NCBI GenBank assembly: GCA_964019415.1
Contig: OZ025880.1
Span: forward strand, 2,019,813 to 2,083,812
Length of the DNA stretch: 64,000 nt
Origin: Ianthella basta
Taxonomy: Eukaryota; Porifera; Demospongiae; Verongiida; Ianthellidae
Direction of reading: 5' to 3'
This document shows, piece after piece, positions 7,029-64,000 of the stretch. Below the pieces are notes generated by a model. It did no database searches. It was not told the origin of the DNA and worked only from the letters and a program-made list of their open reading frames with translations. The first letter of the stretch is position 1. The number at the start of each line of letters is the position of its first letter. The position numbers and the translations under genes were made by a program.

Positions 7029-7298
7029 TTATGTTTCAGTCTCTGTCTCAGTCACTGTATCATCATCCTCTGAGGTGGGCACTCCAGCACGCAGTTCTGT
7101 TATTAGAACAAGGTTCCCAAGTCTCTCTGCTGGTGCTTCCAACAGTGGCTCAGCATTATCCTCACTTTGGTCTTCCTGTTTCTGGCAGCATCTCAACTGC
7201 CTGCACTTCAGATACATCCTTCTTCCTAGTAGAATGCCAGGATACAGGAGGGGTAGATAGATGAGGATCATCTGAAAGGAAGCATAAAATGGTCTTAC
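7029..7298 (-). pseudogene. Untranslated 3' remainder of receptor A (tail beyond the premature stop)
   Basis: The 90 codons after the TGA at 7299-7301 remain open in the same frame. They encode what the other copies have there: a last hydrophobic segment (ILIYLPLLYPGILLG), a Cys-rich juxtamembrane stretch (CRQLRCC), an acidic stretch, LGNLVLITELRAG and a Thr-Glu repeat end. Only the single nonsense codon separates them from the upstream frame. They are therefore probably not made unless the stop is read through. Confidence 0.85.
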
Positions 7299-10200
7299 TC
7301 ACGTGGGTGTGTTGGGATCAGTTATGTGAAGACTCAGGATGAGGATGAGGGCCAGTGTACCAAGGATTGCTGCATCCAAAGTGTTGAGTTTATGTGAATT
7401 GTAGGGTTGCAAGGCGGCAATGAGCAGCAGCAAGGCCACAGTGAGGAAGATCTGGATACGAAGAGCATCTTCTGTTCTTGGTATGAACACAGCCACAAGG
7501 AGGTGGACAATGCGATGGAGGAGGTAGAAGGAAGAGAAGCTTCTTAATCGTTCCTTATAGCAGCCTTGTAAGACATTAACAAAATGGTAGACCCATCTGT
7601 CAGTGTAGACATTGCTGCAGAATGTCTGGATTCTCTGCAGCTTCCTCAATGGTGGCACAGCTATGATGAGTCTACCAAACAGCTGAGGCCCAATGGGAAG
7701 AGTTAGGAGAAGAAAGGATGGCAGAAGGACAAACACTAGCAGTATGACAATGGCAGGTATGAAGTATGCAATGTGTTGTATGGAGCCATAGGGCACAGAG
7801 CCCTGCCACCACACCACCACCTTCCTCTCCCCATCCTCCCCTGTGATGGTTTGGTTGACAAGGATGTAGGAGGAGCTGACCAGGAAGCGAGTGAATCCAA
7901 GAATGACAAAGGCAGGAAGTGCTCTGTCATATGACATGCCATCTGAGCACTTAGCCTTCCATCGTCGCATTCTCCTGAGGCATTGGTCCACTCGGTGACA
8001 GCATATCCACTTCTCTGCTGACCTCTCTAGAACAGTGAATGTGATGGCCACTGTCAGTGGGAACAGTCCAATAGAGTAGTGCAGAAGGATTGTCTGTAGC
8101 AGGGTGAGGTGTGCATGTGGAGTGAGGCAGTATGGGGGAAGGAGCACTCCAAAGAAGTCCAGGTTCCACATGCCATACAGAAATCGGTATATCCTGACAA
8201 ATACACTGTGCACTGGTCCCAACTCAGCATCACCTCTGATAGTTGAGAAGGCCAGGAGTTGTGCAAACAGCAGAAATGAGTTGAACCTTCCTGACACTAG
8301 ATCTATGTTAAAGAGCATCAAGACAAACATGAAAGCAAACATGGGCACCCACTCACTCAGTATCCACACAAGAATGCCCACTTTACTGAGCCCTTCATCA
8401 CAACTGACACACACTGGTCTTATCCCATTGAAGTTCACTGAAATGCTGTACGTTTCAAGGCAGTCTCCACAGAGAAGCCCTTTGCGATTTGACCCACTAC
8501 ACACAACTTCTTGGAGCATTTGCTGTGAGTTGTTTTCAGGAAGAATAATATATTGTGATTGACAGAATCCTGATGGGCATTGTCCAGTGAAGAACTTCTG
8601 TCCATCACAGCTGTGTTGGTCATTGGATGGCAGGTATCCAGCCCAGTGATCTCTCTTCAAAACAGCACCAATCACTTCAGGGTGACTCTCATTACATTCT
8701 GCTATCCCAACCACAATGAGCACTCCACAGTGACATGTTCCCTTGTCTCCTAATCGATATCGAAAGATGTAGCCAGGAGGACAGCACTGGAGCTCTATGT
8801 TCATCACCAGGAGTAGGTCTGTGTTGTCCACTGATTGCAGAACCAGCTGAGGGGGTCTAACTACTGCAGATGTGTTGTTTGTGATGCCAGGGAAGGAATA
8901 GTTGGCCATGCCATGGTGCAGTGGAATGCCATGTAGGATGACTGTATAATCAGCAGTGTATTTGGAGAATAAATTTGGTTCCAAGGGTAGTAAGCCATCC
9001 ATTTTATTGATCAGTACTGCGAACACTGAACTGATGTCATTGCCAAACTCATCATATGCATGAGTATAGGGGAGTCTTTTCTGTTTGCCAGGGATAAAAT
9101 GGAGGATGATGTTTCTTTTTAAATTAGCAACAAATGTGGCACCATTCACATATCTGGGACCAGACATTATTGCCCATTGCAAAGGTGGCCATAGTGCAGT
9201 CGTATTTGCTGAGTAAAGGAATGTAAAATTGAAATCTAAAATGTCAAATACACTAAAGCTATATGTTTCCGATGTTAAATCAGTAGCAGTATTCTTCCTT
9301 GTCTTTTGAGAGAAGCAGTTGCGAGCATCAGTTATATACACTGACTGCACATATTCTTTGATGTCAAAATGGTATGGTCTTGCTGTGTTGCTTTCAAAGA
9401 CAAATGCACTACTATTCACTTCCTGATCTTGGTCATACTGGAGGAAACAGTTTGACTCTGGTACCACACCAGATGCAGAGCTTGTGTAAATGGCACCTCC
9501 TCTCTGAAAGGCATGATTTGTAGTAAAATGTACTATGGCATTATTGCCAACTCTGATGTAACTCTCTCCATGCAGAGCAATAGCGCCACCATGTGTTGCT
9601 ACACAATACTCTATTAGTGAAAATGTATTTGCCTGGAACACAATTTCTGAATCTAGTGCATAAATTCCCTGTGAGTAAGCTCCACAGACAATGGCTAATA
9701 AGTCACTTATGGTTATCTGTACTGACTTAGCAAGGATCATGTTAGTGTTGGCTTCCACCTGCAAAGAAGGGTTGATTCTATGTGATAACTCCCAATACAT
9801 GGCTTCAATCGGCTGGTTGATCACAATGGTAAACATCATGTAATACGAAATATCTGGAAACAGGTTGACTTGTTTCTCATAATTCACTATTTGATATTGT
9901 GATGCAGTCATAAATGCTTCACTTCTTGTCATTCTGACACCTTTAAACAACCTCTTCCCATGAGTAGGAAGTGACTGGAAAGCACATGCACTTCCACTTG
10001 CTGCCATGTTGTGAACTAGCTTTATTTCATCCACAGTCAGACTATCCCCATTGTCGCCTTGGTAGAGTGAGTGTTTGTAGAGCACAGATATACCACCACC
10101 AACTCCTTGCTCTGCTGTGTTTGATCCAAAGATATTCACTGTAAAACTGACTCTGTTGTGTGTCCTGAAGGTGGCATTGACAGTGGAGAACTCCACATGT

Positions 10201-11924
10201 ACACCTCCACCCATCATGTCATGTTTCTCTGATGGCACTAGTTTGTTCTGCACAAATTCGCTCTTGAAAATTACTACCACATTTTCTGCTGATGCGTCTT
10301 TAATCTGAACAAACATGCCTCCTCCACAGTGTGCTGTGTTGTTGCTTGGGTATATAGCTCTGAATTGAATAGTGTTGTTGCGCGAGGAATTCTGCAGGAT
10401 GACATAGACTCCACCGCCCAGCTCTGCAGAATTGTGGCCCATTCCAGTGGTAAGAGCTCTGAACGTGTTCTGAGTAGCAAAGTCACCATAGACAACAGCA
10501 ATACCACCACCTCTGAGGGCATGGTTAAAAAAGAAAAAGCCACTTTTAATTTTCACTAAATTCCTCATGGCATGCCCACTAAATTCAAAAAGCCCTCCTG
10601 CTCCAAAAAGTGCTTTGTGATTTTCAGATACTAAAACAGTCACTTTTATTTCATTTCTCCTTGCCCATCCTGTGATGATCAGTTGTAGTCCTCTACTGTA
10701 TACTTCTGAGCTTTTTGGTCCCCATAGACCCACTCTCTGAATCTGGGCTACATTTTCCTCTGAGTGATCTGTTATTTCTATACAGAGTGCACTGCCTGGA
10801 GCTACTCTCGAAGTGTTTACATAAACATCTTCTATGCGTATGTGGTTTCTGGTGGAATTGCCTCTGAGTTCAATCTTGATGCTGTTATAGGTAGCAGAGT
10901 TGTTTGCAGCACCTTTGGTAAAATTTGGAAGAATGTGTTCATCAAATGTCATTCCACTCACTGTTCTATTGCTACTGCTATGAAAGTCTTCATACTCTTG
11001 TATGACATCTGCTCGTTTCAGTGTTACATTGAAATGGTGCTCTGCATCAAGCAGGGCAACTGAGATGCCATTTCCTCTGTACAGGTAGCTATAGACACTG
11101 ACATAGGAGAGAGAAATCTCACCACCCTCTCCATCTCCCATCACAGTGATGTTGATGCCTGTGAATGATGTATTAAGACTATAATTTGGGTGGACATTGG
11201 TATTGTGAATATATATGTCCATCAGCCGATACTTCTCCCTTGCCAGGGAAGCAGCTCTTGTGTTACCTGTAAGAACTTCAAAGTGTATCCCACTGCCATG
11301 AATTCCAAAATGATCCACTTTAACATTCTCAATTGATACATCCCCATGTGTGATCAAGGTGTTGTACTTGACAAATGAAATGCCCCTTCCATAAAGGCCA
11401 TTGATATATATGACTACAAAGCGTATCCACACTATCTTACAGTCTTGAAAGTACAGGGTTGATGAATCTGAGAGAGAATCACTGTGCTGCAATTGTTTGC
11501 CACACTTATCAAATACTAAATATTCGAGCTTAATGTACTGTGAATTGTAAAATCCAAAGTTTGCTTTGTCAGTGCACAGAATCATTGGCCGATTATAGGT
11601 ACAAACACCCACTACTTTTATGTATGTGGCATTCATCAGTGGTGTCCCTTCTAGCAAATTGTCAACTGGCCCAAGTACATGAATACCACAACCAATGATA
11701 ATCAAAGTATAATTCTGAATATTTTTAAGAGCATAGTTCAGTGACCCACATGATTCATTGAAGTGGTGTAGACGGGGTAGTGGGTCACTTGTTGGTGTGT
11801 CATGTATACACTGTGGACTATCTTCTGTTTTACTAACCCACATGGTTCTTCTGTAGTTCTCAGACGCTGCTCCAGGGCACCATGTGAGCAGCCACAGCAC
11901 ACACACCAGCAGAACCAACTTCAT
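7299..11924 (-). CDS. Receptor A: beta-helix ectodomain, multi-pass membrane protein, truncated by TGA
   Basis: Intronless frame of 1,541 codons. Residues 1-21 form a signal peptide (hydrophobic LVLLVCVLWLLTW, likely cleavage after GAAS). The ectodomain to about residue 1050 is rich in N-x-S/T sites and carries Pmp/pectin-lyase-like repeats (RGGGIAVV, CGGGMFV, THGGAIAL, QRGGAIY). A Cys-rich block follows (CCPPGYIF, LLCGDC, VCVSC), then about eight membrane segments from about residue 1180. Compared with B, D and E the frame stops about 90 codons early: AAC-ACA-CCC-ACG-TGA replaces codons for N-T-P-I-G, removing the last hydrophobic segment and tail. Its 5' flank is of the A/B/D class. The start is the first ATG before the signal peptide. 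Function is unknown; a cell-surface receptor is inferred. It could be functional in truncated form or a young pseudogene. Confidence 0.85.
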   Translation of the reverse strand: MKLVLLVCVLWLLTWCPGAASENYRRTMWVSKTEDSPQCIHDTPTSDPLPRLHHFNESCGSLNYALKNIQNYTLIIIGCGIHVLGPVDNLLEGTPLMNATYIKVVGVCTYNRPMILCTDKANFGFYNSQYIKLEYLVFDKCGKQLQHSDSLSDSSTLYFQDCKIVWIRFVVIYINGLYGRGISFVKYNTLITHGDVSIENVKVDHFGIHGSGIHFEVLTGNTRAASLAREKYRLMDIYIHNTNVHPNYSLNTSFTGINITVMGDGEGGEISLSYVSVYSYLYRGNGISVALLDAEHHFNVTLKRADVIQEYEDFHSSSNRTVSGMTFDEHILPNFTKGAANNSATYNSIKIELRGNSTRNHIRIEDVYVNTSRVAPGSALCIEITDHSEENVAQIQRVGLWGPKSSEVYSRGLQLIITGWARRNEIKVTVLVSENHKALFGAGGLFEFSGHAMRNLVKIKSGFFFFNHALRGGGIAVVYGDFATQNTFRALTTGMGHNSAELGGGVYVILQNSSRNNTIQFRAIYPSNNTAHCGGGMFVQIKDASAENVVVIFKSEFVQNKLVPSEKHDMMGGGVHVEFSTVNATFRTHNRVSFTVNIFGSNTAEQGVGGGISVLYKHSLYQGDNGDSLTVDEIKLVHNMAASGSACAFQSLPTHGKRLFKGVRMTRSEAFMTASQYQIVNYEKQVNLFPDISYYMMFTIVINQPIEAMYWELSHRINPSLQVEANTNMILAKSVQITISDLLAIVCGAYSQGIYALDSEIVFQANTFSLIEYCVATHGGAIALHGESYIRVGNNAIVHFTTNHAFQRGGAIYTSSASGVVPESNCFLQYDQDQEVNSSAFVFESNTARPYHFDIKEYVQSVYITDARNCFSQKTRKNTATDLTSETYSFSVFDILDFNFTFLYSANTTALWPPLQWAIMSGPRYVNGATFVANLKRNIILHFIPGKQKRLPYTHAYDEFGNDISSVFAVLINKMDGLLPLEPNLFSKYTADYTVILHGIPLHHGMANYSFPGITNNTSAVVRPPQLVLQSVDNTDLLLVMNIELQCCPPGYIFRYRLGDKGTCHCGVLIVVGIAECNESHPEVIGAVLKRDHWAGYLPSNDQHSCDGQKFFTGQCPSGFCQSQYIILPENNSQQMLQEVVCSGSNRKGLLCGDCLETYSISVNFNGIRPVCVSCDEGLSKVGILVWILSEWVPMFAFMFVLMLFNIDLVSGRFNSFLLFAQLLAFSTIRGDAELGPVHSVFVRIYRFLYGMWNLDFFGVLLPPYCLTPHAHLTLLQTILLHYSIGLFPLTVAITFTVLERSAEKWICCHRVDQCLRRMRRWKAKCSDGMSYDRALPAFVILGFTRFLVSSSYILVNQTITGEDGERKVVVWWQGSVPYGSIQHIAYFIPAIVILLVFVLLPSFLLLTLPIGPQLFGRLIIAVPPLRKLQRIQTFCSNVYTDRWVYHFVNVLQGCYKERLRSFSSFYLLHRIVHLLVAVFIPRTEDALRIQIFLTVALLLLIAALQPYNSHKLNTLDAAILGTLALILILSLHITDPNTPT

Positions 11925-15159: not shown

Positions 15160-18100
15160 TTAATTATGTGTTTCCGTCTCTGTCTCAGTCACTGTTTCAT
15201 CATCCTCTGAGGTGGGCACTCCAGCACGCAGTTCTGTTATTAGAACAAGGTTCCCAAGTCTCTCTGCTGGTGCTTCCAACAGTGGCTCAGCATTATCCTC
15301 CCTTTGTTCTTCCTGCTTCTGGCAGCATCTCAACTGCCTGCACTTCAGGTATACCTTTCTTCCCAGTAGAATGCCAGGATACAGGAGGGGTAGGTAGATG
15401 AGGATCATTTGGACAGATGCATGGAATTGTCTTGTCCCAATGGGTGTGTTGACATCAGTTATGTGAAGACTCAGGATGAGGATGAGGGCCATGTTACCAA
15501 GGATTGCTGAATCCAAAGTGTTGAGTTTGTGTGAGTTGTAAGGCTGAAAAGTAGCAATGAGCAGCAGCAAGGCCACAGTGAGGAAGATCTGGATACGGAG
15601 AACATCTTCTGCTCTTGGTATGAACACTGCCACAAAGAGGTGAACAATGCGATGGAAGAGATAGACGGAAGAGAAGATTCTACATCGTTCCTTATAGCAG
15701 CCTTGTAGAACATTAACAAAGTGGTAGACCCATCTGTCAGTGTAGACATTGCTGCAGAATGTCTGCATCCTCTGCAGTTTCCTCAATGGTGGCACAGCTA
15801 TGATGAGTCTACCAAACAGTTGAGGTCCAATGGGAAGAGTGAGGAGAAGAAAGGAGGGCAGAAGGACAAACACTAGTAGTATGACAATGGCTGGTATGAG
15901 GTATGCAATGTGTTGTATGGAGCCATAGGGCACAGAGCCCTGCCACCACACCACCACCTTCCTCTCCCCATCCTCTCCTGTGATGGTCTGGTTGACAAGG
16001 ATGTAGGAGGAGCTGACCAGGAAGCGAGTGAATCCAAGAATGACAAAAGCAGGAAGTGCTCTGTCATATGACATGCCATCTGAGTACTTTGCCTTCCATT
16101 GTCGCATTCTCCTGAGGCATTGGTCCACTCGGTGACAGCATATCCACTTCTCTGCTGACCTCTCTAGAACAATGAGTGTGATGGCCACTGTCAGTGGGAA
16201 CAGTCCAATGGAGTAGTGCAGAAGGAGTGTCTGTAGCAGGGTGAGGTGGGCATGTGGAGTTAGGCAGTATGGTGGGAGGAGCACACCAAAGAAGTCCAGG
16301 TTCCACATGCCATACAGAAATCGGTATATCCTGACAAATGCATTGTGCACTGGTCCCAACTCAGCATCACCTCTGATAGTGGAGAAGGCCAGGAGTTGTG
16401 CAAACAGCAGAAATGAGTTGAACTGTCCTGACACTAGGTCTATGTTGAAGAGCATCAAGACAAACATGAAGGCGAGCATGGGCACCCACTCACTCAGGAT
16501 CCACACAAGAATGCCCACTTTACTGAGCCCGTCCTCACAACTGACACACACTGGTCTTATCCCATTGAAGTTCACAGCTATGCCTTTTGATTCAAGACAG
16601 TCTCCACAGAGTAGTCCTTTTCGATTAGACCCACTACACACAACATTTTGGAGCTCCTGCTGTGAGTCGTTTTCAGGAAGGTTACTAGGTTGCATTTGAC
16701 AGTACCCCGGAGGGCATAGTCCGGTGAAGAACTTCTGTCCATCACAGCTGTGTTGGTCATTGGATGGCAGGTATCCAGCCCAGTGATCTTTCCTCAAGAC
16801 AGAATGACTCTCATTACATTTTGCTATTCCAGTCACACGGAGCACTCCACAGTGACATGTTCCCATGTCTCCTGAGCCATATCTGAAGATGTAGCCAGGA
16901 GGACAGCACTGAAGTTCTATGTTCATCACCAGGAGTAGGTCTGTGTTGTCCACTGACTGCAGAACCAGCTGAGGAGGTCTAACTACTGCAGATGTGTTAC
17001 TTGTGTTGTTCAAGAAGTGTTTGGCCATGCCATGTTGCTGCGGAATGCCATGGAGAATGACTGTAAAGTCAGCATTGTATTTGGAGAATGAGTTCAGTTC
17101 CACTGGTAGTGAGTTATTCATCTTGTTAATCAGTACAGAGAACACTGAACTAACGGTATTGCCAAACTCATCATATGCATGAGTATAGGGAAGTCTCTTC
17201 TGTTTGCCAGGGATGAAATAGATGGTAATGGTATTGTTCAAATTGACAACAACAGTGGCGGTATCCACATATTTGGGCTCGGACATTATACTGCAAATTA
17301 AAGATTTGTATTGCTCATGATCACCGGCATTGATTGAGTGAATGAACATTAAGTTGAAATGCAATGTATCAAAAAATTTGCTAATGTTACGAAAGTCTGG
17401 AGATGATGCTAAAGTTACTTGAAGTTGAAGGTTCTTCATTACATTTTGAAAGAAGCAATTGCGAAGATCAGACACATACAATTCCTGGCTTCGTTGCTTA
17501 GCTGTTGCTGTGTTACCATAAAACATTAATGCACCTCTGTTCTCAGACTCTTTCCTTTCTTGGTCAAACTGGAGGAAACAACTTGACACTGGTACCACTC
17601 CAGGTGCTGAACTGGCATAAATAGCACCTCCTCTTTGAAAGGCATGATTTAAAATGAACATAATTTCGGCATTATTTCCAACTCTGATGTAGCTCTCTCC
17701 ATGGAGAGCAATAGCACCGCCATGTGTAGCAACACAGTACGCTATCATTGCTGATGCATTTGTCTGGAGCAAAATTTCTGAATTTAGTGCATATATTCCT
17801 TGTGAATTAACCACACAGTCGATGTGTAATTTATTATGTACTGTTATCTGTACTGACTTTGCAAACATCATGATTGTGTTAGTTTGAACCTGAAAGGAAG
17901 GTTTAACGACTTCCGAAAGCAGCTGCATCAAATAAGCACCTGACCAGTAATCGGGGTAATTAGTATAGCTATATGAAAACTGATCACCTACAAACTGGTT
18001 CCACTGCTCCTTGAAGGTTTCATATTCTGTAGTAATCAAAGTTGCAGAAATATTTGTCATTCTGACACCTCTGAACAACCTCTTCCCATGAGTAGGAAGT

Positions 18101-20091
18101 GACTGAAAAGCACATGCACTTCCACTTGCTGCCAGGTTGTGAAGTAGCATTAAAGAATTTAGAGTCACTCTGTCCCCAGGGTTGCCTTGGTAAAATGAAT
18201 GCTTGTAGAGCACAGAAATACCACCACCAACACCGTGTCCTGCTGTGTTAAAGAAAATATCATTTTTGGTGAAAGTGACAATGTTGTCTGTCTGGAAGGT
18301 GGCACTGACAGTGGAGAACTCCACATGAACACCTCCACCCATCATGTCATGTTTCTCGGAGGAAAGTAGTTGGTTGTGCATATAATAACTGTCAAGAATT
18401 ACTACCATGTTTGCTTCTGATGCATCTGTAATATGAATTAACATGCCACCTCCTTGGTGTGCTGTGTTGGCGGGAATGTTCATCTGTGTGAATTCAATAG
18501 TGTTATTACATGAGGAATCCTGAAGGATGAGACAGATTCCACCGCCCCATTCAGCAAAATTGAGATAGATTAAACTGTCTTCCACCTTGAATGAGTTCAG
18601 AGTAGCAAAGTCCCTGCAGACAACAGCAAATCCACCACCTCTGAGGGCATGGTTAGAACCAAAATAGGCATCTCTAATTTTCATTGAATTCCTCATGGCA
18701 TACCCACTGAATTCAAAATGCCCACCTGCTCCAAAATGTGCTCTGTGATATCCACATAATGAATCATTCACTTGTATTTCATTTCTCCTTGCCCATCCTG
18801 TGATGATCAGTTGTAGTCCTCTACTGTATACTTCTGAGCTGTTTGGTCCCCATAGACCCATTCCCTGAAGCAGGGCAACATTTTCCTCTGAGTGATCTGT
18901 TACTTCTATGCAGAGTGCACTGCCTGGAGCTACTCTGGAAGTGTTTACATAAACATCTTCTATGTGTATGTGGTTTCTAGTGGAATTGCCTCTGAGTTCA
19001 ATCTTAATGCTGTTATAGGTAGCAGAGTTGTTTGCAGCTCCTTTGGTAGAATTTGAAAGAATGCGTTCATCAAATGTCATTCCACTCACTGTTCTATTGC
19101 TACTGCTGTGACAGTCTTCACACTCCTGTACGACAAGTGCTTGTTTCAGTGTTACGTTGTAATGGTGCACTGCATCAAGCAGGGCAACTGAGATGCCACT
19201 TCCACTGCTGGCTCTGTGCAGGTAGCTATAAACACCGACATTGAAGAGAGTAATCTCACCACCCTCTCCATCTCCCATCACAGTGATGTTGATGCCTGTG
19301 AATGATGTATTAAGAATATAATTTGGGTGGACATTTGTATTGTGAATATATACGTCCATCAGCCAGTACTTCTCACTTGCCAGAAAATTCAAAACATCTT
19401 TAGCGTTATGTATACCTGTAAAAACTTCAAAGTGTATCCCACTGCCATGAAAGCCAAAATGACATACTTTAACATACTCAAATGATACATCCCCGTGTGT
19501 GATTGAGGTGTCGTACTTGACAAATGAAATGCCCCTTCCATAGGGGCCAGTGATATTAATGATTACAAAGCGTAGCATCACTGTCTTATAGTCTTGAAAG
19601 TACAGGGTTGACGAATCTGAGAGAGAATCACTGTGCTGCAATTGTTCACCACAGTTACAGAATGCTAAATACTCAAGCCTAACTTCTTGTGAATTGTAAA
19701 ATCCAAAGTTTGCTTTGTCAGTGCACAGAATTGTTGGCCAATGATTATCACAAACACCCACTACTGCGATGTATGTGTCATTCATCAGTGGTGTCCCATC
19801 TGGCAAACTGTCAACTGGCGCAAGTACATGAATGCCACAACCAATTAAAATCAGGGTATGATTCTGAATATTTTTAAGAGTATAGTCCAGAGACCCACAC
19901 GATTCATTAAGGTGGCGTGTGTGAGGTACTGGGTCACTTGCTGGTGTGTCATGTATACACTGTGGGCTATCCTCTCCTGTTGTACTAACCCACATGGTTC
20001 TTCTGTAGTCCTCAGAAGCTGCTCCAGTGCAGCATGTGAGCAGCCACAACACACACACCAGTAGGCTGTGTTTGACTAGAACTGACTTCAT
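15160..20091 (-). CDS. Receptor B: beta-helix ectodomain, multi-pass membrane protein (intact)
   Basis: Intronless frame of 1,643 codons from the ATG at 20091 (MKSVLVKHS). An in-frame ATG at 20163 would add 24 residues, but only the downstream one begins a signal peptide (LLVCVLWLLTCC, likely cleavage near GAAS). Residues ~30-1050 are a glycosylated ectodomain with repeats such as RGGGFAVV (~485), WGGGICLIL, QGGGMLIHI, MMGGGVHVEF, THGGAIAL and QRGGAIYAS (~820). Residues ~1063-1183 are Cys-rich (CCPPGYIF, LLCGDC, VCVSC). Eight or nine hydrophobic segments follow from ~1188, with motifs LPPYCLTP, FQPYNSHKLNTLD and LPLLYPGILLG. The cytoplasmic tail holds CRQLRCC (possible palmitoylation), EPLLEAP and TETETET. 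The repeats resemble chlamydial Pmp GGAI repeats, as in sponge proteins auto-named 'outer membrane protein pmp'. Ligand and signalling are unknown. Confidence 0.93.
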   Translation of the reverse strand: MKSVLVKHSLLVCVLWLLTCCTGAASEDYRRTMWVSTTGEDSPQCIHDTPASDPVPHTRHLNESCGSLDYTLKNIQNHTLILIGCGIHVLAPVDSLPDGTPLMNDTYIAVVGVCDNHWPTILCTDKANFGFYNSQEVRLEYLAFCNCGEQLQHSDSLSDSSTLYFQDYKTVMLRFVIINITGPYGRGISFVKYDTSITHGDVSFEYVKVCHFGFHGSGIHFEVFTGIHNAKDVLNFLASEKYWLMDVYIHNTNVHPNYILNTSFTGINITVMGDGEGGEITLFNVGVYSYLHRASSGSGISVALLDAVHHYNVTLKQALVVQECEDCHSSSNRTVSGMTFDERILSNSTKGAANNSATYNSIKIELRGNSTRNHIHIEDVYVNTSRVAPGSALCIEVTDHSEENVALLQGMGLWGPNSSEVYSRGLQLIITGWARRNEIQVNDSLCGYHRAHFGAGGHFEFSGYAMRNSMKIRDAYFGSNHALRGGGFAVVCRDFATLNSFKVEDSLIYLNFAEWGGGICLILQDSSCNNTIEFTQMNIPANTAHQGGGMLIHITDASEANMVVILDSYYMHNQLLSSEKHDMMGGGVHVEFSTVSATFQTDNIVTFTKNDIFFNTAGHGVGGGISVLYKHSFYQGNPGDRVTLNSLMLLHNLAASGSACAFQSLPTHGKRLFRGVRMTNISATLITTEYETFKEQWNQFVGDQFSYSYTNYPDYWSGAYLMQLLSEVVKPSFQVQTNTIMMFAKSVQITVHNKLHIDCVVNSQGIYALNSEILLQTNASAMIAYCVATHGGAIALHGESYIRVGNNAEIMFILNHAFQRGGAIYASSAPGVVPVSSCFLQFDQERKESENRGALMFYGNTATAKQRSQELYVSDLRNCFFQNVMKNLQLQVTLASSPDFRNISKFFDTLHFNLMFIHSINAGDHEQYKSLICSIMSEPKYVDTATVVVNLNNTITIYFIPGKQKRLPYTHAYDEFGNTVSSVFSVLINKMNNSLPVELNSFSKYNADFTVILHGIPQQHGMAKHFLNNTSNTSAVVRPPQLVLQSVDNTDLLLVMNIELQCCPPGYIFRYGSGDMGTCHCGVLRVTGIAKCNESHSVLRKDHWAGYLPSNDQHSCDGQKFFTGLCPPGYCQMQPSNLPENDSQQELQNVVCSGSNRKGLLCGDCLESKGIAVNFNGIRPVCVSCEDGLSKVGILVWILSEWVPMLAFMFVLMLFNIDLVSGQFNSFLLFAQLLAFSTIRGDAELGPVHNAFVRIYRFLYGMWNLDFFGVLLPPYCLTPHAHLTLLQTLLLHYSIGLFPLTVAITLIVLERSAEKWICCHRVDQCLRRMRQWKAKYSDGMSYDRALPAFVILGFTRFLVSSSYILVNQTITGEDGERKVVVWWQGSVPYGSIQHIAYLIPAIVILLVFVLLPSFLLLTLPIGPQLFGRLIIAVPPLRKLQRMQTFCSNVYTDRWVYHFVNVLQGCYKERCRIFSSVYLFHRIVHLFVAVFIPRAEDVLRIQIFLTVALLLLIATFQPYNSHKLNTLDSAILGNMALILILSLHITDVNTPIGTRQFHASVQMILIYLPLLYPGILLGRKVYLKCRQLRCCQKQEEQREDNAEPLLEAPAERLGNLVLITELRAGVPTSEDDETVTETETETHN

Positions 20092-20974: not shown

Positions 20975-21068
<94 letters not shown>
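20975..21068. repeat. (TG)n microsatellite
   Basis: An uninterrupted ~94-bp TG tract about 0.9 kb upstream of receptor B. It is equivalent in position to tracts upstream of C, D and E. Confidence 0.97.
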
Positions 21069-43294: not shown

Positions 43295-43298
43295 ACAC

Positions 43299-43359
<61 letters not shown>

Positions 43360-46947: not shown

Positions 46948-49900
46948 TTATGTTTCAGTCTCTGTCTCAGTCACTGTATCATCATCCTCTGAGGTGGGCA
47001 CTCCAGCACGCAGTTCTGTTATTAGAACAAGGTTCCCAAGTCTCTCTGCTGGTGCTTCCAACAGTGGCTCAGCATTATCCTCCCTTTGTTCTTGTGGTTT
47101 CTGGTAGCATCTCAATTGCCTGCACTTCAGGTATACCTTTCTTCCCAGTAGAATGCCAGGATACAGGAGGGGTAGGTAGATGAGGATCATCTGGAGGGAA
47201 GCATAGAACTGTCTTGTTCCAATGGGTGTGTTGAGATCAGTTATGTGAAGACTCAGGATGAGGATGAGGGCCAGTGTACCAAGGATAGCTGCATCTAAAG
47301 CATTGAGTTTGCGTGAATTGTAGGGCTGAAAGGTAGCAATGAGCAGCAGCAAGGCCACAGTGAGGAAGATCTGGATGCGGAGAGCATCTTCTGCTCTTGG
47401 TATGAACACAGCTACAAGGAGGTGAACAATGCGATGGAAGAGATAGAGAGAAGAGAAGCTTCTGAATCGTTCCTTATAGCAGCCTTGTAGAACATTAACA
47501 AAATGGTAGACCCATCTGTCTGTGTAGATGTTGCTGCAGAATGTCTGCATCCTCTGCAGCTTCCTCAATGGTGGCACAGCTATGATGAGTCTGCCAAACA
47601 GCTGAGGTCCAATGGGAAGAGTGAGGAGAACAATGGAGGGTAGAAGGACAAACACTAGCAGTATGACAATGGCTGGTATGAAGTAAGCAATGTGTTGTAT
47701 GGAGCCATAGGGCACAGAGCCCTGCCACCACACCACCACCTTCCTCTCCCCATCCTCCCCTGTGATGGTTTGGTTGACAAGGATGTAGGAGGAGCTGACT
47801 AGGAAGCGAGTGAATCCAAGAATGACAAAGGCAGGAAGTGCTCTGTCATATGACATGCCATCTGAGTACTTTGCCTTCCATTGTCGCATTCTCCTGAGAC
47901 ATTGGTCCACTCGATGACAGCATATCCACTTCTCTGCTGACCTCTCAAGAACAATGAGTGTGATGGCCACTGTCAGTGGGAATAGTCCAATGGAGTAGTG
48001 CAGAAGGAGTGTCTGTAGCAGTGTGAGGTGGGCATGTGGAGTGAGGCAGTATGGTGGGAGGAGCACTCCAAAGAAGTCCAGGTTCCACATGCCATACAGA
48101 AATCGGTATATCCTGACAAATGCATTGTGCACTGGTCCCAACTCAGCATCACATCTGATAGTGGAGAATGCCAAGAGTTGTGCAAACAGCAGAAATGAGT
48201 TGAACCTTCCTGACACTAGGTCTATGTTGAAGAGCATCAAGACAAACATGAAGGCAAGCATGGGCACCCACTCACTCAGGATCCACACAAGAATGCCCAC
48301 TTTACTGAGCCCTTCCTCACAACTGACACACACTGGTCTTATCCCATTGAAGTTCACAGCTATGCCTTTTGATTCAAGACAGTCTCCACAGAGGATCCCT
48401 TTGCGGTTAGATCTGTTACATGCAGCTTCCTGCAGCTCTTGCTGTGAGTTGTTTTCGGGAAGAGTGATTTGCTGTGTTTGACAGTATCCTGGAGGGCATT
48501 GTGCAGTAAAGAACTTCTGTCCGTCACAGCTGTGTTGGTCATTGGATGGCAGGTATCCAGCCCAGTGATCTCTCTTCAAGACAGAATGACTCTCATTGCA
48601 TTCTGCTATTCCAGTCACACTGAGCACTCCACAGTGACATGTTCCCATGTCTCCTGATCCGTATCGGAAGATGTAGCCAGGAGGACAGCACTGGAGCTCT
48701 ATGTCCATCACCAGGAGTAGGTCCGTGTTGTCCACTGACTGCAGAACCAGCTGAGGAGGTCTAACTACAGCAGATGTGTTGCTTGTGTTGTTCAAGAAGT
48801 GTTTGGCCATGCCATGTTGCTGTGGAATGCCATGGAGGATGACTGTAAAGTCAGCAGTGTATTTGGAGAAAGAGTTCAGTTCCGCAGGTAGTGAGTAATC
48901 CATCTTGTTAATCAGTACTGTGAACACTGAACTGATGTTTTTGCCAAACTCATCATATGCATGAGTATAGGGAAGTCTCTTCTGTTTGCCAGGGATGAAA
49001 TAGATGGTAATGGTATTGTCCAATTTGACAACAAAAGTGGCAATATCCACATGTTTGGGACTTGACATTAGTGTGCAACTGAAATATTTGCATAGCTCAT
49101 AAGCACTTGTCGGATAAATGAACGTAAAATTGAAATGTGCTAATATGCGAGTGCTAAGCAATGATGTTAAATTTGTAGTAACTTCCGGCTTTATATTTTG
49201 AAGAATACAATTGCGAACATCAGACACATACAATGACTGGCTATGTTGCCTATCTTTTGCTGTGTTAAATGCAAACACAAATTCATTTCTGTTCTGAGAC
49301 TCTTCCCATTCTTGGTCATACTGGAGGAAACAATTTGACACTGGTACCACTCCAGGAGCAGAACTGCCATAAATGGCACCTCCTCTTTGAAATGCATGAT
49401 TTGAAAGGAAGTATAATGTGACATTATTGCCAACTCTGATGTAGCTCTCTCCATGGAGAGCAATAGCACCGCCATGTGTGGCAACACAGTACTCTATTGC
49501 AAACAATGTATTTGTCTGGAGCAAAATTTCTGAATGTAGTGCATATATTCCTTGTGAAGCAACCCCACAATGGATGTGGAATTTATTTTGCACTGTTATC
49601 TGTACTGATTTCGCCAACATCATGTTTGTGTTAGTTTGAACCTGAAAGGAAGGTTTGCCAACTTGTGATAACAGCTGCATCAAATATTCATATGACCAGT
49701 AATGGGGCGAATTAGTATATCTAAATGAAAAGCGACCACCTACATACTGGTTCCACTGCTCCTTGAAGGCTTCATATTCTGTAGTAATCAAAGTTGCAGA
49801 AATATTTGTCATTCTGACACCTCTGAACAACCTCTTCTCATGAGTAGGAAGTGACTGGAAGGCACATGCACTTCCACTTGCTGCCATGTTGTGAAGTAAC

Positions 49901-51837
49901 ATTAAAGAATTTAGAGTCACTCTGTCCCCAGGGTCGCCTTGGTACAGTGAATGCTTGTACAGCACAGAAATACCACCACCAACACCGTGTCCTGCTGTAT
50001 TAATGAAAAACCTACTTTCGCTGAAAGTGACAATGTTGTCTGTTTGGAAGGTAGCACTGACAGTGGAGAACTCCACATGAACACCTCCACCCATCATGTC
50101 ATGTGTCTCTGATGGGAGTAGTTGGTTGTACACAGACCCACTGTCAAGTATTACTACCATGTTTGCTTCTGATGCATCTGTAATATGAATTAACATGCCA
50201 CCTCCTTGGTGTGCTGTGTTGCCGTCAATATTCATCTGTGAGAATTCAATAGTGTTATTGCATGAGGAATCTTGAAGGATTAGACAGATTCCACCACCCA
50301 ATTCAGCAAAATTTTTATAGATCATATTGTTTTCCACCTTGAATGTGTTCAGAGTAGCAAAGTCCGTGCAGACAACAGCAAACCCACCACCTCTGAGGGC
50401 ATGGTTTAAATTGAAATAGGCATCTCTAATGTTCATTGAATTCCTCATGGCATACCAACTGAATTCAAAAAGCCCGCCTGCTCCCAAACATGCTCTGTAA
50501 TATAAAGATACTAAATCAGTCACTTGTATTTCATTTCTTCTTGCCCATCCTGTGATGATCACTTGTAGTCCTCTACTGTATATTTCTGAATTGTTGGGTC
50601 CTTTTAGGCGCACTCTTTGAAGCAGAGCTACATTTTCCTTTGAGTGATCTGTTATTTCTATGCAGAGTGAACTACCTGGAGCTATTCTGGAAGTGTTTAC
50701 ATAAGCATCTTCTATATGTATGTGGTTTCTGGTGGAATTGCCTCTGAGTTCAATCTTGATGCCATTAAAGGTAGTGGAATTGTTGGCAGTACCTTTGGTA
50801 AAATTTGAAAGAATGCGTTCATCAAATGTCATTCCACTCACTGTTCTATTGCTACTGCTATGAGAGTCTTGACAGTCCTGTATGACAAGTGCTAGTTTCA
50901 GTGTTACGTTGTAATGGTGCACTGCATCAAGCAGGGCAACTGAGATGCCACTTCCACTGCTGGTTTTGTACCGGTGGCTATAGATAGTGACATTGGAGAG
51001 AGTAATCTCACCACCCTCTCCACCTCCCATCACAGTGATGTTGATGCCTGTGAATGATGTATTAAGATTATAATTTGGATGGACATTTGCATTGATAATT
51101 GTTATCTTCTTCAGCCAATGCTTCTCACTAGCCAGGGAAACATCGCTTGTGTTATGTATACCTGTAAGAACTTCAAAGTGTATCCCACTGCCATGAATGC
51201 CAAAATGCAGTACTTTAACACGGTCCATTGATACATTCCCATGTGTGATTGAAGAGTCGTACTTGACAAATGAAATGCCCCTTCCATAAGGGCCAGTGAT
51301 ATTAATGATTACATAATGTATCATCACTGTTTTATAGTCTTGAAAGTACAGGGTTGATGAATCTGAGAGAGAATCACTGTGCTGCAATTGTTCACCACAG
51401 TTACGGAATGTTAAATATTCAAGCCTAGCGTACTGTGAATTGTAAAATGCCAAGTTTGCTTTGGCAGAACACAGAATCTTTGGCCTATAATTGGCACAAC
51501 CACTCATTAGTGCTATTTTAGTGACATTCATCAGTGGTGTCCCATCTAGCAAGTTGTCCACTGGCTCAAGTACATGGATGCCACAACCAATGACAATCAA
51601 GGTATCATTCCCAATGTGTGTAAGAGCATAGTTCAGTGACCCACATGATTCATTAAGGTGGTGTGGACGGGGTACTGGGTCACTTGTTGGTGTGTCATGT
51701 ATACACTGTGGACTATCCTCTCCTGTTGTACTAACCCACATGGTTCTTCTGTAGTCCTCAGAAGCTGCTCCAGTGCAGCATGTGAGCAGCCACAGCACAC
51801 ACACCAGTAGGCTGTGTTTGACTAGAACTGACTTCAT
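46948..51837 (-). CDS. Receptor E: beta-helix ectodomain, multi-pass membrane protein (intact)
   Basis: Intronless, 1,629 codons from the ATG at 51837 (MKSVLVKHS). The frame continues seven codons up to a GTG, but no ATG lies there. Signal peptide LLVCVLWLLTCC, then a glycosylated ectodomain with GAGGLFEF, RGGGFAVV, LGGGICLIL, QGGGMLIHI, MMGGGVHVEF, THGGAIAL and QRGGAIYGS. The Cys-rich block has AACNRSNRKGILCGDC where the others have VVCSGSNRKGLLCGDC. Eight or nine membrane segments and an acidic tail ending TETETET follow. The ectodomain is mostly of the B/D type, yet the 5' flank and the N-terminal SLNYALTHIGN segment are of the C type and the 3' flank is of the A type, so this copy looks recombinant. 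Inferred surface receptor. Confidence 0.93.
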   Translation of the reverse strand: MKSVLVKHSLLVCVLWLLTCCTGAASEDYRRTMWVSTTGEDSPQCIHDTPTSDPVPRPHHLNESCGSLNYALTHIGNDTLIVIGCGIHVLEPVDNLLDGTPLMNVTKIALMSGCANYRPKILCSAKANLAFYNSQYARLEYLTFRNCGEQLQHSDSLSDSSTLYFQDYKTVMIHYVIINITGPYGRGISFVKYDSSITHGNVSMDRVKVLHFGIHGSGIHFEVLTGIHNTSDVSLASEKHWLKKITIINANVHPNYNLNTSFTGINITVMGGGEGGEITLSNVTIYSHRYKTSSGSGISVALLDAVHHYNVTLKLALVIQDCQDSHSSSNRTVSGMTFDERILSNFTKGTANNSTTFNGIKIELRGNSTRNHIHIEDAYVNTSRIAPGSSLCIEITDHSKENVALLQRVRLKGPNNSEIYSRGLQVIITGWARRNEIQVTDLVSLYYRACLGAGGLFEFSWYAMRNSMNIRDAYFNLNHALRGGGFAVVCTDFATLNTFKVENNMIYKNFAELGGGICLILQDSSCNNTIEFSQMNIDGNTAHQGGGMLIHITDASEANMVVILDSGSVYNQLLPSETHDMMGGGVHVEFSTVSATFQTDNIVTFSESRFFINTAGHGVGGGISVLYKHSLYQGDPGDRVTLNSLMLLHNMAASGSACAFQSLPTHEKRLFRGVRMTNISATLITTEYEAFKEQWNQYVGGRFSFRYTNSPHYWSYEYLMQLLSQVGKPSFQVQTNTNMMLAKSVQITVQNKFHIHCGVASQGIYALHSEILLQTNTLFAIEYCVATHGGAIALHGESYIRVGNNVTLYFLSNHAFQRGGAIYGSSAPGVVPVSNCFLQYDQEWEESQNRNEFVFAFNTAKDRQHSQSLYVSDVRNCILQNIKPEVTTNLTSLLSTRILAHFNFTFIYPTSAYELCKYFSCTLMSSPKHVDIATFVVKLDNTITIYFIPGKQKRLPYTHAYDEFGKNISSVFTVLINKMDYSLPAELNSFSKYTADFTVILHGIPQQHGMAKHFLNNTSNTSAVVRPPQLVLQSVDNTDLLLVMDIELQCCPPGYIFRYGSGDMGTCHCGVLSVTGIAECNESHSVLKRDHWAGYLPSNDQHSCDGQKFFTAQCPPGYCQTQQITLPENNSQQELQEAACNRSNRKGILCGDCLESKGIAVNFNGIRPVCVSCEEGLSKVGILVWILSEWVPMLAFMFVLMLFNIDLVSGRFNSFLLFAQLLAFSTIRCDAELGPVHNAFVRIYRFLYGMWNLDFFGVLLPPYCLTPHAHLTLLQTLLLHYSIGLFPLTVAITLIVLERSAEKWICCHRVDQCLRRMRQWKAKYSDGMSYDRALPAFVILGFTRFLVSSSYILVNQTITGEDGERKVVVWWQGSVPYGSIQHIAYFIPAIVILLVFVLLPSIVLLTLPIGPQLFGRLIIAVPPLRKLQRMQTFCSNIYTDRWVYHFVNVLQGCYKERFRSFSSLYLFHRIVHLLVAVFIPRAEDALRIQIFLTVALLLLIATFQPYNSRKLNALDAAILGTLALILILSLHITDLNTPIGTRQFYASLQMILIYLPLLYPGILLGRKVYLKCRQLRCYQKPQEQREDNAEPLLEAPAERLGNLVLITELRAGVPTSEDDDTVTETETET

Positions 51838-52621: not shown

Positions 52622-53228
<607 letters not shown>

Positions 53229-59716: not shown

Positions 59717-60658
59717 CTATAAATTATGTGTTCCAGTCTCTGTCTCAATCACAGTGTCATGATCCTCTGAGGTGGGCACTCCAGCACGCAGTTCTGTTAT
59801 TAGAACAAGGTTCCCAAGTCTCTCTGCTGGTGCTTCCAACAGTGGCTCAGCATTATCCTCCCTTTGTTCTTCTTGTTTCTGGCAGCATCTCAACTGCCTG
59901 CACTTTAGGTACACCTTCTTTTCCAGGAGAATGCCAGGATACAGGAGGGGTAGGTAGATGAGAATCATCTGGAGAGAAGCATAGAACTGTCTTGTCCCAA
60001 TGGGTGAGTTGAGATCAGATATGTGAAGACTCAGAATGAGGATGAGGGCCAGGTTACCAAGGATAGCTGAATCTAAAGCATTGAGTTTGCGTGAATTGTA
60101 GGGCTGAAAGGTAGCAATGAGCAGCAGCAAGGTCACAGTGAGGAAGATCTGGATACAGAGAGCATCTTCCGCTTTTGGTATGAACACAGCCACAAGGAGA
60201 TGGACAATGCGATGGAAGAGGTAGAGGGAAGAGAAGCTTCTGAATCGTTCCTTATAGCAGCCTTGAAAGACATTGACAAAGTGGTAGACCCATCTGTCAG
60301 TGTAGACATTGCTGCAGAATGTCTGAATCCTCTGCAGATTCCTCAATGGTGGCACAGCTATGATGAGTCTACCAAACAGTTGAGGTCCAATGGGAAGAGT
60401 GAGGAGAACAAAGGAGGGCAGAAGGACAAACATCAGTAGTATGACAATGGTTGGTATGATGTAGGCAATGTGTTGTATGGAGCCATAGGGCACAGAGCCC
60501 TGCCACCAAACCACCACTTTCCTCTCCCCATCCTCTCCTGTGATGGTCTGGTTCGCAAGGATGTAGGAGGAGCTGACCAAGAAGCGAGTGAATCCAAGAA
60601 TGACAAAGGCAGGAAGTGCTCTGTCATATGACATGCCATCTGAGTACTTTGCCTTCCA
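59717..60658 (-). pseudogene. 3' remainder of receptor F beyond the premature stop
   Basis: 313 further codons stay open in the same frame after the TGA at 60659-60661. They encode the last membrane segments (ALPAFVILGFTRFLVSSSYI through LPLLYPGILLE) and the acidic tail ending TETGTHNL. They are untranslated unless the stop is read through or the base is a sequencing error. Confidence 0.85.
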
Positions 60659-63600
60659 TCATCGCATTCTCCTGAGGCATTGGTCCACTCGGTGACAGCA
60701 TATCCACTTCTCTGCTGACCTCTCAAGAACAATGAGTGTGATGGCCACTGTCAGTGGGAACAGTCCAATGAAGTAGTGGAGAAGGAGTGTCTGTAGCAGG
60801 GAAAGGTGGGCGTGTGGTGTGAGGCAGTATGGGGGAAGGAGCACACCAAAGAAGTCCAGGGTCCACATGCCATACAGAAATCGGTATATCTTGACAAATG
60901 CATTGTGTACTGGTCCCAACTCAGCATCACCTCTGATTGTGGAGAATGCCAGGAGTTGTGCAAACAGCAGAAATGAATTGAACCTTCCTGACACTAGGTC
61001 TATGTTGAAGAGCATCAAGACAAACATGAAGGTGAACATGGGCACCCACTCACTCAGGATCCACACAAGAATGCCCACTTTACTGAGCCCATCCTCACAA
61101 CTGACACACACTGGTCTTATCCCATTGAAGTTCACTGCAATTCCATTCACTTCAAGACAGTCTCCACAGAGAAATCCTTTGCGATTAGACCCACTACACA
61201 CAACATTCTGGAGCTCTTGTTGTGAGTTGTTTTGAGGAAGAGTGATTTGCTGTGTTTGACAGTATCCTGGAGGGCATGGTCCAGTGAAGAACTTCTGTCC
61301 ATCACAGCTGTGTTGGTCGTTGGATCGCAGGTATCCAGCCCAGTGGTCTCTCTTCAACGCAGCACCAATCACATGCATCTCAGGGTGACTCTCATTACAG
61401 CCTGCTATTCCAATCACAGTTAGCACTCCACAGTGACATGTTCCCATGTCTCCTGATCCATATTGTAGGATGTAGCCAGGAGGACAGCACTGGAGCTCTA
61501 TGTTCATCACCAGGAGTAGGTCTGTGTTGTCCACTGACTGCAGAACCAGCTGAGGAGGTCTAACTACCGCAGATGTGTAGCTTGTGTTGCTAGGGAAGGA
61601 ATGGTTGGCCATGCCATGTTGCTGAGGAATGCCATGGAGGATGACTACAAAGTCATCAATGTATTTGGAGAAAGAGTTCAGTTCCACTGGTAGTGAGTCA
61701 TCCATCTTGTTAATCAGTACTGCGAACACTGGAGTGATAATATTGCCAAACTGATCATATGCACAAGTATAAGGAAGTTGCCTTGGTTTGCCAGGAATGA
61801 AATGAATAATATTATGTTTGGTCATGTTCCCATTCAAGTCAGCGAAAAGTGTGGCACTATCCATATAGCTGATACCAGACATTATCTCCCACTGTAAATT
61901 TGTCCGTCTCTCACTGTCATTTGCTGGGTAAATGAATGAAAAGTTAAAATGTTGTATGTCAAATACACTGAAAGTAAGCCAGTCTGAGTATGGAGCTAAA
62001 TTGGTAGAATGATTTTTTCTTGTAGTTTGAGAGTAACAGTTGCGAGCATCAGACATATACAGTGAGAGTCCTGCAACATCAGCTGAGTTCGTATCAAAGA
62101 CAAATGCACCGCTAATTTCATTCCACTCTTGGTCATACTGGAGGAAACAGTTTGACACTGGTAGCACACCAGGTGCAGAACTGGCATAAATGGCACCTCC
62201 TCTTTGAAAGGCATGGTTGAAAGCAAATTCTAAAGTTGCATTTTTGCCAACTCTGATGTAGCTCTCTCCATGGAGAGCAATAGCACCACCATGTGTAGCA
62301 ACGCAGATCTGTAGCAAAGCCATTGTATTTGCTTGGAACACAATTTCTGTATCTAGAGCATATATTCCTTGTGAAGAAGCTCCACAATAGATGTTTAATT
62401 CATTCCTTACTGTTATCTGTACTGATTTTGCAAATATCATGTTTGTGTTGGTTTCAACCTGAAGAGAAGGATTGATGCCTTGTGATAACTGCTGATTCAT
62501 AACTGCAACTGATTCCTCAGAAGACGAATTAATCACTATGTGAAAGCGATTGAAATACGAAGTATTCTCTGATGGTTGCATAATGTTCATTTGGCCAGTT
62601 ATAACATTAATATCTGCAATAAAATTTGTCATTCTGACACCTCTGAACAACCTCTTCCCATGAGTAGGAAGTGACTGGAAAGCACATGCACTTCCACTTG
62701 CTGCCATGTTGTGAAGTAGATGTGCATTCTCAATAATCAGTCTATCCCCACTGTCACCTTGGTAATGTGAGTGTTTGTAAAGCACAGATATACCACCACC
62801 AACTCCAGGCCCTGCTGTATTGAATGCAAACTTATCCTCTGTAAAGATGACAATGTTGTCTGTCCTGAAGGTGGCACTGACAGTAGCGAACTCCACATGA
62901 ACACCTCCACCCATCATGTCATGTTTCTCTGAGGGGAATAGTTCATTGTACATAAAATTACAATTCCAAATTTCTACCACATTTGCTACTGATGCATCTT
63001 TAATCTGAAGCAAAATCCCTCCTCCACGGCATGCTGTGTTACTGAAAAGGTCTAGTGCAAGGTGAATAGTGTTTTTGCTTGAGGAGTCCTGCAGGTTGAC
63101 AAGGACTCCACCACCCAGTACTGCAGAACTGTTAGAGATCTTCATGTTGTGTACAATGAATATATTGTCAGTGGCAAAGTCCCTGCAGACAGTGGCAATA
63201 CTACCACCCCAGAAGGCATGATTATGACTGACAAGTGTGTATTTGATCTCCACTAAATTTTCCATGGCATGTCCACTGAATTCAAAATACCCACCGGCTC
63301 CACAAAGTGCTCTGTGAGCATGAAATCCTGTCTCAGTCACGATAATTGCATTTCTCCTTGCCCATCTTGTCACAAATACGTGTAGTCCTCTTCTGCATGC
63401 TTTTGAGCTGTTTGATCCCACTAGGTACATATCCTGGAGCAGGACAGCATTTCTCTCTGACTGATCTGTAACTTCAATGGATAAGGCACTGCCTGGAGCT
63501 ACACATTCTGTGAGCCCAAACACTTCAACAGTTCCAATTTGTATGTGGTTTCTGTTGGAGTTGCCTCTCAGTTCAATTTTGATGCTGGTAAGGGTAATAG

Positions 63601-64000
63601 AGTTGTTAAAAGCATCCTTAGCTGTACTTGAACAAAACTGTTCATCAATTGTGGTGCCACTTGCTGTCCTATTGCTGCTGTTGTGAAGGTTCTGACAATC
63701 CTCTAAAACTTCAACATCTTCGAGAAATACATTGTAATGGCACACTGTATCAAGAAGGGCTATAGAGATGCCACTTCCACTGCTGGTTCTGTCTAGGTGG
63801 CTATAGATAGTGAAATTGGAGAGAATAATCTCACCACCCTCTCCATCTCCCATCACAGTGATGTTGATACCTGTGAATGTCATAGCAAGATTTCTGGGAT
63901 TGACATTTTCCACAAAAACGGCTTTACATATAATCGTCAACGTCGTAAGCTGAATTCTCTCATTTGCTAGAGAAGCATCTCTTGTGCTACCTGTAAGATA
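60659..64000 (-). CDS. Receptor F: beta-helix/multi-pass membrane protein, truncated by TGA, 5' end off window
   Basis: The frame is open from the right edge (5' end missing) and reads GSTRDASLANERIQL before the point where an automatic start might be placed, so no start lies in the window. The ectodomain is of the C type (GLTECVAPGSALSIEVTDQS, GAGGYFEFSGHAMENL, RGGGILLQI, MMGGGVHVEF, THGGAIAL, QRGGAIYAS), then CCPPGYIL, FLCGDC, VCVSC and the first membrane segments. It stops after CLRRMR, where B has CLRRMRQWK: CGA or CAA is replaced by TGA (60659-60661) in the loop after about the third membrane segment. This would leave a protein with a complete ectodomain but fewer than half the membrane segments. 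Compared with C it has no frameshift, so F is the better representative of this subtype. Confidence 0.85.
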   Translation of the reverse strand, partial: YLTGSTRDASLANERIQLTTLTIICKAVFVENVNPRNLAMTFTGINITVMGDGEGGEIILSNFTIYSHLDRTSSGSGISIALLDTVCHYNVFLEDVEVLEDCQNLHNSSNRTASGTTIDEQFCSSTAKDAFNNSITLTSIKIELRGNSNRNHIQIGTVEVFGLTECVAPGSALSIEVTDQSERNAVLLQDMYLVGSNSSKACRRGLHVFVTRWARRNAIIVTETGFHAHRALCGAGGYFEFSGHAMENLVEIKYTLVSHNHAFWGGSIATVCRDFATDNIFIVHNMKISNSSAVLGGGVLVNLQDSSSKNTIHLALDLFSNTACRGGGILLQIKDASVANVVEIWNCNFMYNELFPSEKHDMMGGGVHVEFATVSATFRTDNIVIFTEDKFAFNTAGPGVGGGISVLYKHSHYQGDSGDRLIIENAHLLHNMAASGSACAFQSLPTHGKRLFRGVRMTNFIADINVITGQMNIMQPSENTSYFNRFHIVINSSSEESVAVMNQQLSQGINPSLQVETNTNMIFAKSVQITVRNELNIYCGASSQGIYALDTEIVFQANTMALLQICVATHGGAIALHGESYIRVGKNATLEFAFNHAFQRGGAIYASSAPGVLPVSNCFLQYDQEWNEISGAFVFDTNSADVAGLSLYMSDARNCYSQTTRKNHSTNLAPYSDWLTFSVFDIQHFNFSFIYPANDSERRTNLQWEIMSGISYMDSATLFADLNGNMTKHNIIHFIPGKPRQLPYTCAYDQFGNIITPVFAVLINKMDDSLPVELNSFSKYIDDFVVILHGIPQQHGMANHSFPSNTSYTSAVVRPPQLVLQSVDNTDLLLVMNIELQCCPPGYILQYGSGDMGTCHCGVLTVIGIAGCNESHPEMHVIGAALKRDHWAGYLRSNDQHSCDGQKFFTGPCPPGYCQTQQITLPQNNSQQELQNVVCSGSNRKGFLCGDCLEVNGIAVNFNGIRPVCVSCEDGLSKVGILVWILSEWVPMFTFMFVLMLFNIDLVSGRFNSFLLFAQLLAFSTIRGDAELGPVHNAFVKIYRFLYGMWTLDFFGVLLPPYCLTPHAHLSLLQTLLLHYFIGLFPLTVAITLIVLERSAEKWICCHRVDQCLRRMR

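Follow-up and report, generated by a model that had tools for sequence, protein, structure and literature searches.

What kind of protein is encoded by six giant, similar reading frames that follow one another on a single strand of a 64,000-nucleotide stretch of DNA (hereafter the window; contig C13, positions 2019813-2083812, in a genome of 209 Mb and 96 contigs)? Our answer, which we hold to be probable, is that they belong to a large family of single-exon receptors of the cell surface, amplified in tandem, with a diversifying recognition function. A tblastn search of the window with copy E (E<=1e-5) returned eight pieces, all of them within six colinear copies on the minus strand. This bears out the original prediction of six colinear genes on one strand with spacers of 3-8 kb (measured between open reading frames, these are 3.2, 3.2, 6.1, 7.5 and 7.9 kb), and the three members that it described as damaged are A, C and F. 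Counted from the MKSV start common to the copies, B, D and E are intact over 1,643, 1,636 and 1,629 codons. The copies and the parts of the reference copy E lie as follows.

7299..11924, minus strand: copy A, from the signal peptide through the last membrane segments, with an in-frame TGA at 7299-7301
7029..7298, minus strand: C-terminal tail of copy A, in open frame beyond this stop
15160..20091, minus strand: copy B, intact (reading frame open to 20163)
23372..28276, minus strand: copy C, broken by one TAA and two frame changes, in the pieces 23372-24163, 24212-25489, 25489-26538 and 26504-28276
34362..39272, minus strand: copy D, intact (reading frame open to 39482)
46948..51837, minus strand: copy E, intact, the reference for residue numbering
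48760..51762, minus strand: ectodomain of copy E, residues 26-1026, with Pmp-type coils and the hypervariable strand
48271..48759, minus strand: cysteine-rich collar of copy E, about residues 1027-1189 (limits chosen by us), with 13 invariant cysteines
46951..48270, minus strand: membrane domain and acidic C-terminal tail of copy E, residues 1190-1629, with eight strong and one weaker hydrophobic segments
59717..64000, minus strand: copy F, broken by an in-frame TGA at 60659-60661, its 5' end about 0.7 kb past the window edge

For copy F a frameshift was considered as the lesion and rejected; the damage is the single in-frame TGA instead. The layout foreseen for these genes, namely a shared signal peptide, GGG/GGA coils, a cysteine-rich collar and eight or nine membrane segments, was found with all its parts. 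Hydropathy gives eight strong membrane segments, while the weaker ninth at about residues 1212-1230, and the topology that would result from it, is our reading of the sequence. For the comparisons we used 31 members, 25 of them open (3 in the window, 17 elsewhere on C13, 3 on C15, 1 on C7 and 1 on C4) and six broken and kept apart from this set: A, C and F (L027), L028, L033 and L041. Identity between pairs of the 25 open members averages 54% for the ectodomain (range 32-81), 78% for the collar and 90% for the membrane domain. The 13 collar cysteines are invariant in the family, even in the divergent member L047. The E ectodomain contains seven GG[GA] motifs followed by a hydrophobic residue, against 0.28 expected and at most 3 in 2,000 shuffles. 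FxxNx[AS]-type repeats occur 10 times in E (3.9 expected, shuffle maximum 11), which is not decisive taken alone, and 15 times in L047 (4.6 expected, shuffle maximum 14). Matches to the Pmp repeat families at E<=1 are mostly weak; PF02415 is found in nine of the 25 ectodomains (best E 7.6e-5) and TIGR01376 in 15 (best E 8.5e-4).

The family extends far beyond the six genes of the window. We searched the genome with the membrane parts of E and of a C4 member and scored 89 of 326 and 89 of 322 candidates; the union holds at least 95 distinct matches, distributed as at least 35 on C4, 30 on C13, 13 on C15, 11 on C86, three on C7 and one each on C6, C11 and C21. The small contig C86 repeats the scores from part of the C4 array (C4:10866000-10953000), among them pairs 52.9 kb apart that resemble a tandem duplication. 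It looks like a near-copy of part of C4, that is, a haplotig or an unplaced duplicate, and because of the duplicated scores we set its 11 matches aside from the family count. This leaves at least 84 matches; for 63 of them the surrounding frame stays open over at least 1,600 codons, and no stop interrupts the match itself. A search of the genome with a degenerate DNA version of the collar motif GLLCGDC gives 103 sites, and the reversed control gives none. At least 16 of these sites form a divergent second-tier array, C9:4607816-4806061. Its member L047 has the same architecture; compared with E it is 43% identical across the collar and membrane part and 24-28% identical along the long stretches of the ectodomain, and its membrane part matches three further places on C12 and one on C7. 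With the C9, C12 and C7 additions and the defective members, the superfamily comprises at least 104 loci. Four open frames are unusually long, 2,773-3,364 amino acids (C15:5339342, C15:5360802, C4:10790694 and C4:11081529); perhaps these are members with extended ectodomains or in-frame neighbours.

Selection was analyzed with a custom-written site model that has separate silent and replacement rates, fitted to 24 members (L046 was dropped from the 25) after removal of alignment columns with more than four gaps. The codons with P(beta>alpha)>0.9 number 52, of which 46 are found in the ectodomain, one in the collar and five in the membrane domain or tail. Twice the log-likelihood gain (2dlnL) is 31, 20, 49 and 30 in four of the five ectodomain segments, in each case above all 20 null simulations. 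Null data with four recombination breakpoints, made for segments 26-230 and 411-660, reach maxima of 10.7 and 12.9 and stay below the observed values.

The variability is periodic. Over residues 411-640 its period is 31 residues, with an autocorrelation of 0.55 at that lag. With anchors on the seven coils of E that fit the strict FxxNxA type (residues 478-858), and with offsets counted from the Asn, nine of the 14 places at -4 and -2 are hot, against 0.64 expected; none of 20,000 random placements gave as many, free offsets included. Neither the hydrophobic residue at -3 nor the Asn at 0 is a hot site in any of the seven coils. With 16 wider anchors, 21 of the 46 ectodomain hot sites fall inside -7 to -1, a stretch making up 10% of the positions, and in the AlphaFold2 model all 21 places at -4, -3 and -2 belong to predicted strands, against a baseline of 46%. 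Three non-overlapping close pairs carry 95 replacement and 6 silent differences at the five register places, giving a ratio of replacement to silent proportions (pN/pS) of 3.96, compared to 0.29 in the core, 0.64 in the remaining ectodomain and 0.22 in the membrane domain. Over the close pairs the ratio ranges from 3.8 to 4.0 in the register, from 0.16 to 0.29 in the core and from 0.21 to 0.22 in the membrane domain. According to PMC11166332, models of chlamydial Pmps have both the Phe and the Asn of FxxN turned inward, and the residues at -4 and -2 should therefore face outward; this exposure is deduced from strand position and the Pmp models rather than from coordinates. Because the offsets were derived from the fitted sequences, we checked them on the six broken members kept outside the fit. 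Here the register pN exceeds the pN of the remaining ectodomain in 15 of 15 pairs, and register and rest differ with Fisher p values of 0.038 and 0.0055 in two pairings. The direction is the same and the support is weaker: the concentration of positive selection on residues expected to be exposed is found in-sample and, to a lesser degree, out of sample.

The AlphaFold2 model of the E ectodomain, made from a shallow alignment, has an all-beta core with 376 of 1,001 residues at a predicted local distance difference test score (pLDDT) of at least 70. Among the 50 Foldseek matches listed for the PDB, out of 194 with E<=10, most carry the name of a beta-helix protein. The ectodomain is likely a beta-solenoid, modelled at medium confidence, with about 20 coils by our estimate. 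The beta-helix first proposed for it stands in this form, together with the Pmp-like repeats and short of a significant Foldseek match.

How are the ectodomains renewed while the membrane half stays so uniform? Each segment of the genes rejects the trees of the others (41 of 42 approximately unbiased comparisons at p<0.05). Median synonymous divergence (dS) falls from 0.53-0.84 across the ectodomain segments to 0.48 for the collar, and is 0.18-0.29 for the membrane segments and 0.20 for the tail, so that silent divergence in the membrane half is about 2-5-fold lower. This low silent divergence in the 3' half made us suspect gene conversion and suggests that conversion homogenises the membrane half; a lower mutation rate or silent constraint in the 3' half could also be the cause. 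For the 20 C13 members, divergence grows with distance along the contig in each of the five segments compared (Mantel r between 0.48 and 0.65, reached by none of 2,000 permutations), as tandem duplication predicts. The resemblance to birth-and-death evolution that had been noted is consistent with tandem amplification and the broken members, and to it we add a recognition-type selection pattern that had not been seen before. Copies C and F, 36 kb apart, are 95% identical in their ectodomain DNA (25492-27586 versus 61907-64000), which is a recent duplication or conversion.

From these elements the following mechanism can be proposed. A probable beta-helical ectodomain would project from the cysteine-rich collar upon a conserved multi-pass domain, whose cytosolic tail is conserved as well. 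Its buried framework would be fixed, while one outward strand face evolves fast, coil by coil, and may act as a ligand-binding ladder. Duplication and recombination would renew the ectodomains, with gene conversion presumably holding the membrane half uniform, and this half might relay a common signal after the ladder has bound changing ligands. Such ligands would most likely be variable outside surfaces, for example glycans or proteins of microbes or symbionts, and less likely self/non-self partners. More tentatively, the genes may represent an undescribed germline-diversified receptor class, perhaps of an early-branching animal, that combines a recognition face of stacked beta-helix coils, an analogue of the LRR-based VLRs on another scaffold, with a new signalling domain of eight or nine segments, more than 100 loci, a membrane half kept uniform by conversion and a diversifying ladder. 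Our literature search, which left out subscription papers, preprints and eukaryotic protein databases, found no description of such a family; unnamed relatives in the databases likely exist. Large diversifying recognition families are known on immunoglobulin (Ig), leucine-rich repeat (LRR), SRCR and NLR scaffolds. If our reading is true, a beta-helix scaffold, possibly with a new signalling domain, joins them, and a defined set of residues becomes available for testing the recognition of microbes, symbionts or kin.

Several results weigh against the receptor reading. The ratio of nonsynonymous to synonymous divergence (dN/dS) of the ectodomain is below 1 (0.47-0.58), segment 851-1050 does not stand out from its nulls (2 of 20 reach its value), and the membrane part has a few candidate sites too, its gain of 9.5 lying modestly above the maximum of 7.6 among its 20 nulls. 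In each segment the null data themselves produce some 2-3 spurious hot sites, with maxima of 4-8; segments 231-410 and 661-850 have 7 hot sites, no more than the null maximum, and single sites are therefore uncertain. The register offsets were first found in the same 24 sequences, only 6 silent differences enter the close-pair ratio, and the strict register is demonstrated for coils 478-858 only. Out of sample the register pN/pS is just 0.81 and 1.00 in the two pairings (rest 0.63 and 0.65), and no more than 4 of the 15 pairs show a pN above the pS at the register places, these pairs being more diverged, uncorrected for multiple hits and low in silent counts. On the structural side, the ectodomain model has a mean pLDDT of only 58.6, the membrane-domain model was discarded at a pLDDT of 30.6, and Foldseek gave no significant match (best E 0.23 in the PDB and 0.0042 in a viral library). 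PF02415 has no match genome-wide at E<=0.001 and none in five window proteins at E<=1, and the TIGR01376 cut-off is passed by B, E and F but not by D or A among these five. Finally, 21 of the at least 84 loci appear defective.

Could such a pattern arise without any recognition? An ordinary amplified family with a relaxed ectodomain, its hot sites produced spuriously by recombination, by the alignment or by relaxed constraint, would fit the strong recombination, the broken members and the low ectodomain dN/dS, as it would the 11 of 15 out-of-sample pairs in which register pN is not above pS. This account is nevertheless decidedly improbable in our view, as the recombinant nulls stay below the value found in both segments for which they were made and the hot sites flank conserved buried places. 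Allorecognition or homophilic adhesion, in which the beta-helix face would pair with an identical or allelic protein of adjacent cells and the variation would mark self, is unlikely but the least so of the alternatives. A Pmp fragment is predicted to stack as oligomers according to PMC11166332. The variable face is periodic, and tandem arrays recombine, both in keeping with this idea. The usual design of allorecognition is however one or two very polymorphic loci, as with Hydractinia Alr, and here at least 84 matches are spread across several contigs.

A chemosensory function like that of vertebrate V2R, with a conserved multi-pass signalling domain and a large variable ectodomain for soluble cues, would account for single-exon tandem arrays with a conserved membrane domain and a variable ectodomain. 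We judge it very unlikely, since the 25 members have no 7tm or receptor-ligand Pfam match and selection acts on a strand repeated across the coils, not on a single pocket. Improbable to the same degree is that the proteins are variable surface antigens or adhesins by which a non-animal eukaryote owning this genome, be it a protist, a parasite or a cobiont, would escape its host or keep up with it. In favor of this, PMC11166332 reports Pmp-like proteins from Trichomonas. The peptidase C1 matches of this genome are, however, split into several short pieces in the style of an intron-rich genome. A uniform multi-pass domain with a collar would moreover be unusual for antigens. Silicatein was tried as a sponge marker and rejected, because none of the nine silicatein-type motif sites coincides with any of the 45 peptidase C1 matches.

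The diversifying receptor family that we favor can also be set against known systems. With the chlamydial Pmp autotransporters it shares coils of FxxN and GGA-type tetrapeptides, usually at an equally short spacing of 4-5 residues, a predicted beta-helix and weak matches to the repeat families, so that the repeat likeness is a weak one. The beta-barrel translocator is absent among the four families matched in the 25 membrane parts at E<=5, and instead 8-9 hydrophobic segments and a cysteine collar are found, in tandem single-exon genes of a eukaryote-sized genome; without the barrel the family does not belong to the chlamydial autotransporters despite its Pmp-type coils. The Pmp-like proteins of Trichomonas are single-pass, in contrast to the multi-pass domain and collar here. 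They resemble the present family as eukaryotic proteins with Pmp-type repeats, and they are named in PMC11166332, which also states that almost 200 non-bacterial proteins carry PF02415. Lamprey VLR and other LRR receptors likewise are solenoids whose core is fixed and whose repeats each carry variable residues on a strand, but the fold is another one, the 25 ectodomains have no leucine-rich repeat match at E<=1, and the variation here is spread across germline genes. V2R receptors similarly put a large variable ectodomain on a conserved multi-pass domain in large tandem families, yet our proteins lack 7tm_3 and ANF receptor Pfam matches and have a single coding exon, a probable beta-solenoid and eight or nine segments. 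Sponge aggregation factors, which PMC5450542 cites, are candidate self/non-self surface genes; in contrast to these secreted proteoglycans, the present proteins are membrane proteins without a Calx-beta match.

The earlier view that a beta-helix ectodomain on such a membrane domain is no textbook animal receptor class agrees with our searches, which gave no credible Pfam match for the membrane part of the 25 members (limit E<=5, best E 0.09). The four Pfam families behind this value, each seen in one to three membrane parts, were judged to be chance, as were the isolated Pfam matches that one or two ectodomains gave (best E 0.0012). Neither any 7tm Pfam class nor GAIN/GPS was matched in the window proteins or the 25 members, and no TRP or PKD channel domain in the 25 members or the divergent L047 and L046. 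Compared to the seven helices of a G-protein-coupled receptor there are eight strong segments and one weaker, in a domain modelled at a pLDDT of 30.6. PDB sequence searches, by phmmer with E and with profiles of both halves, gave nothing at E<=1. Phage records had no match to the membrane part by tblastn, and neither had PHROGs (three proteins or parts) or PADLOC (two proteins); viral and prokaryotic contigs held no relative in a weak test that requires short near-exact peptides.

The genes had been called intronless, which is demonstrated for their coding part only. Directly 5' of the start codons at 11924, 20091, 28255, 39272 and 51837 stands a conserved short AG|GTGT..AGTGG stretch, possibly a splice acceptor in the 5' untranslated region, and the flanks ahead of it are of two kinds and align poorly. 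In five copies an antisense open frame of 152 amino acids recurs on the plus strand over the collar/membrane part (8104-8562, 16241-16699, 24447-24905, 35455-35913 and 48023-48481); these are probably shadow frames of conserved coding DNA. The window contains no tRNA and no Rfam family over the gathering score. Its spacers carry (AC)n/(TG)n runs at 1359-1573, 20975-21068, 40239-40354, 43295-43365 and 53088-53226.

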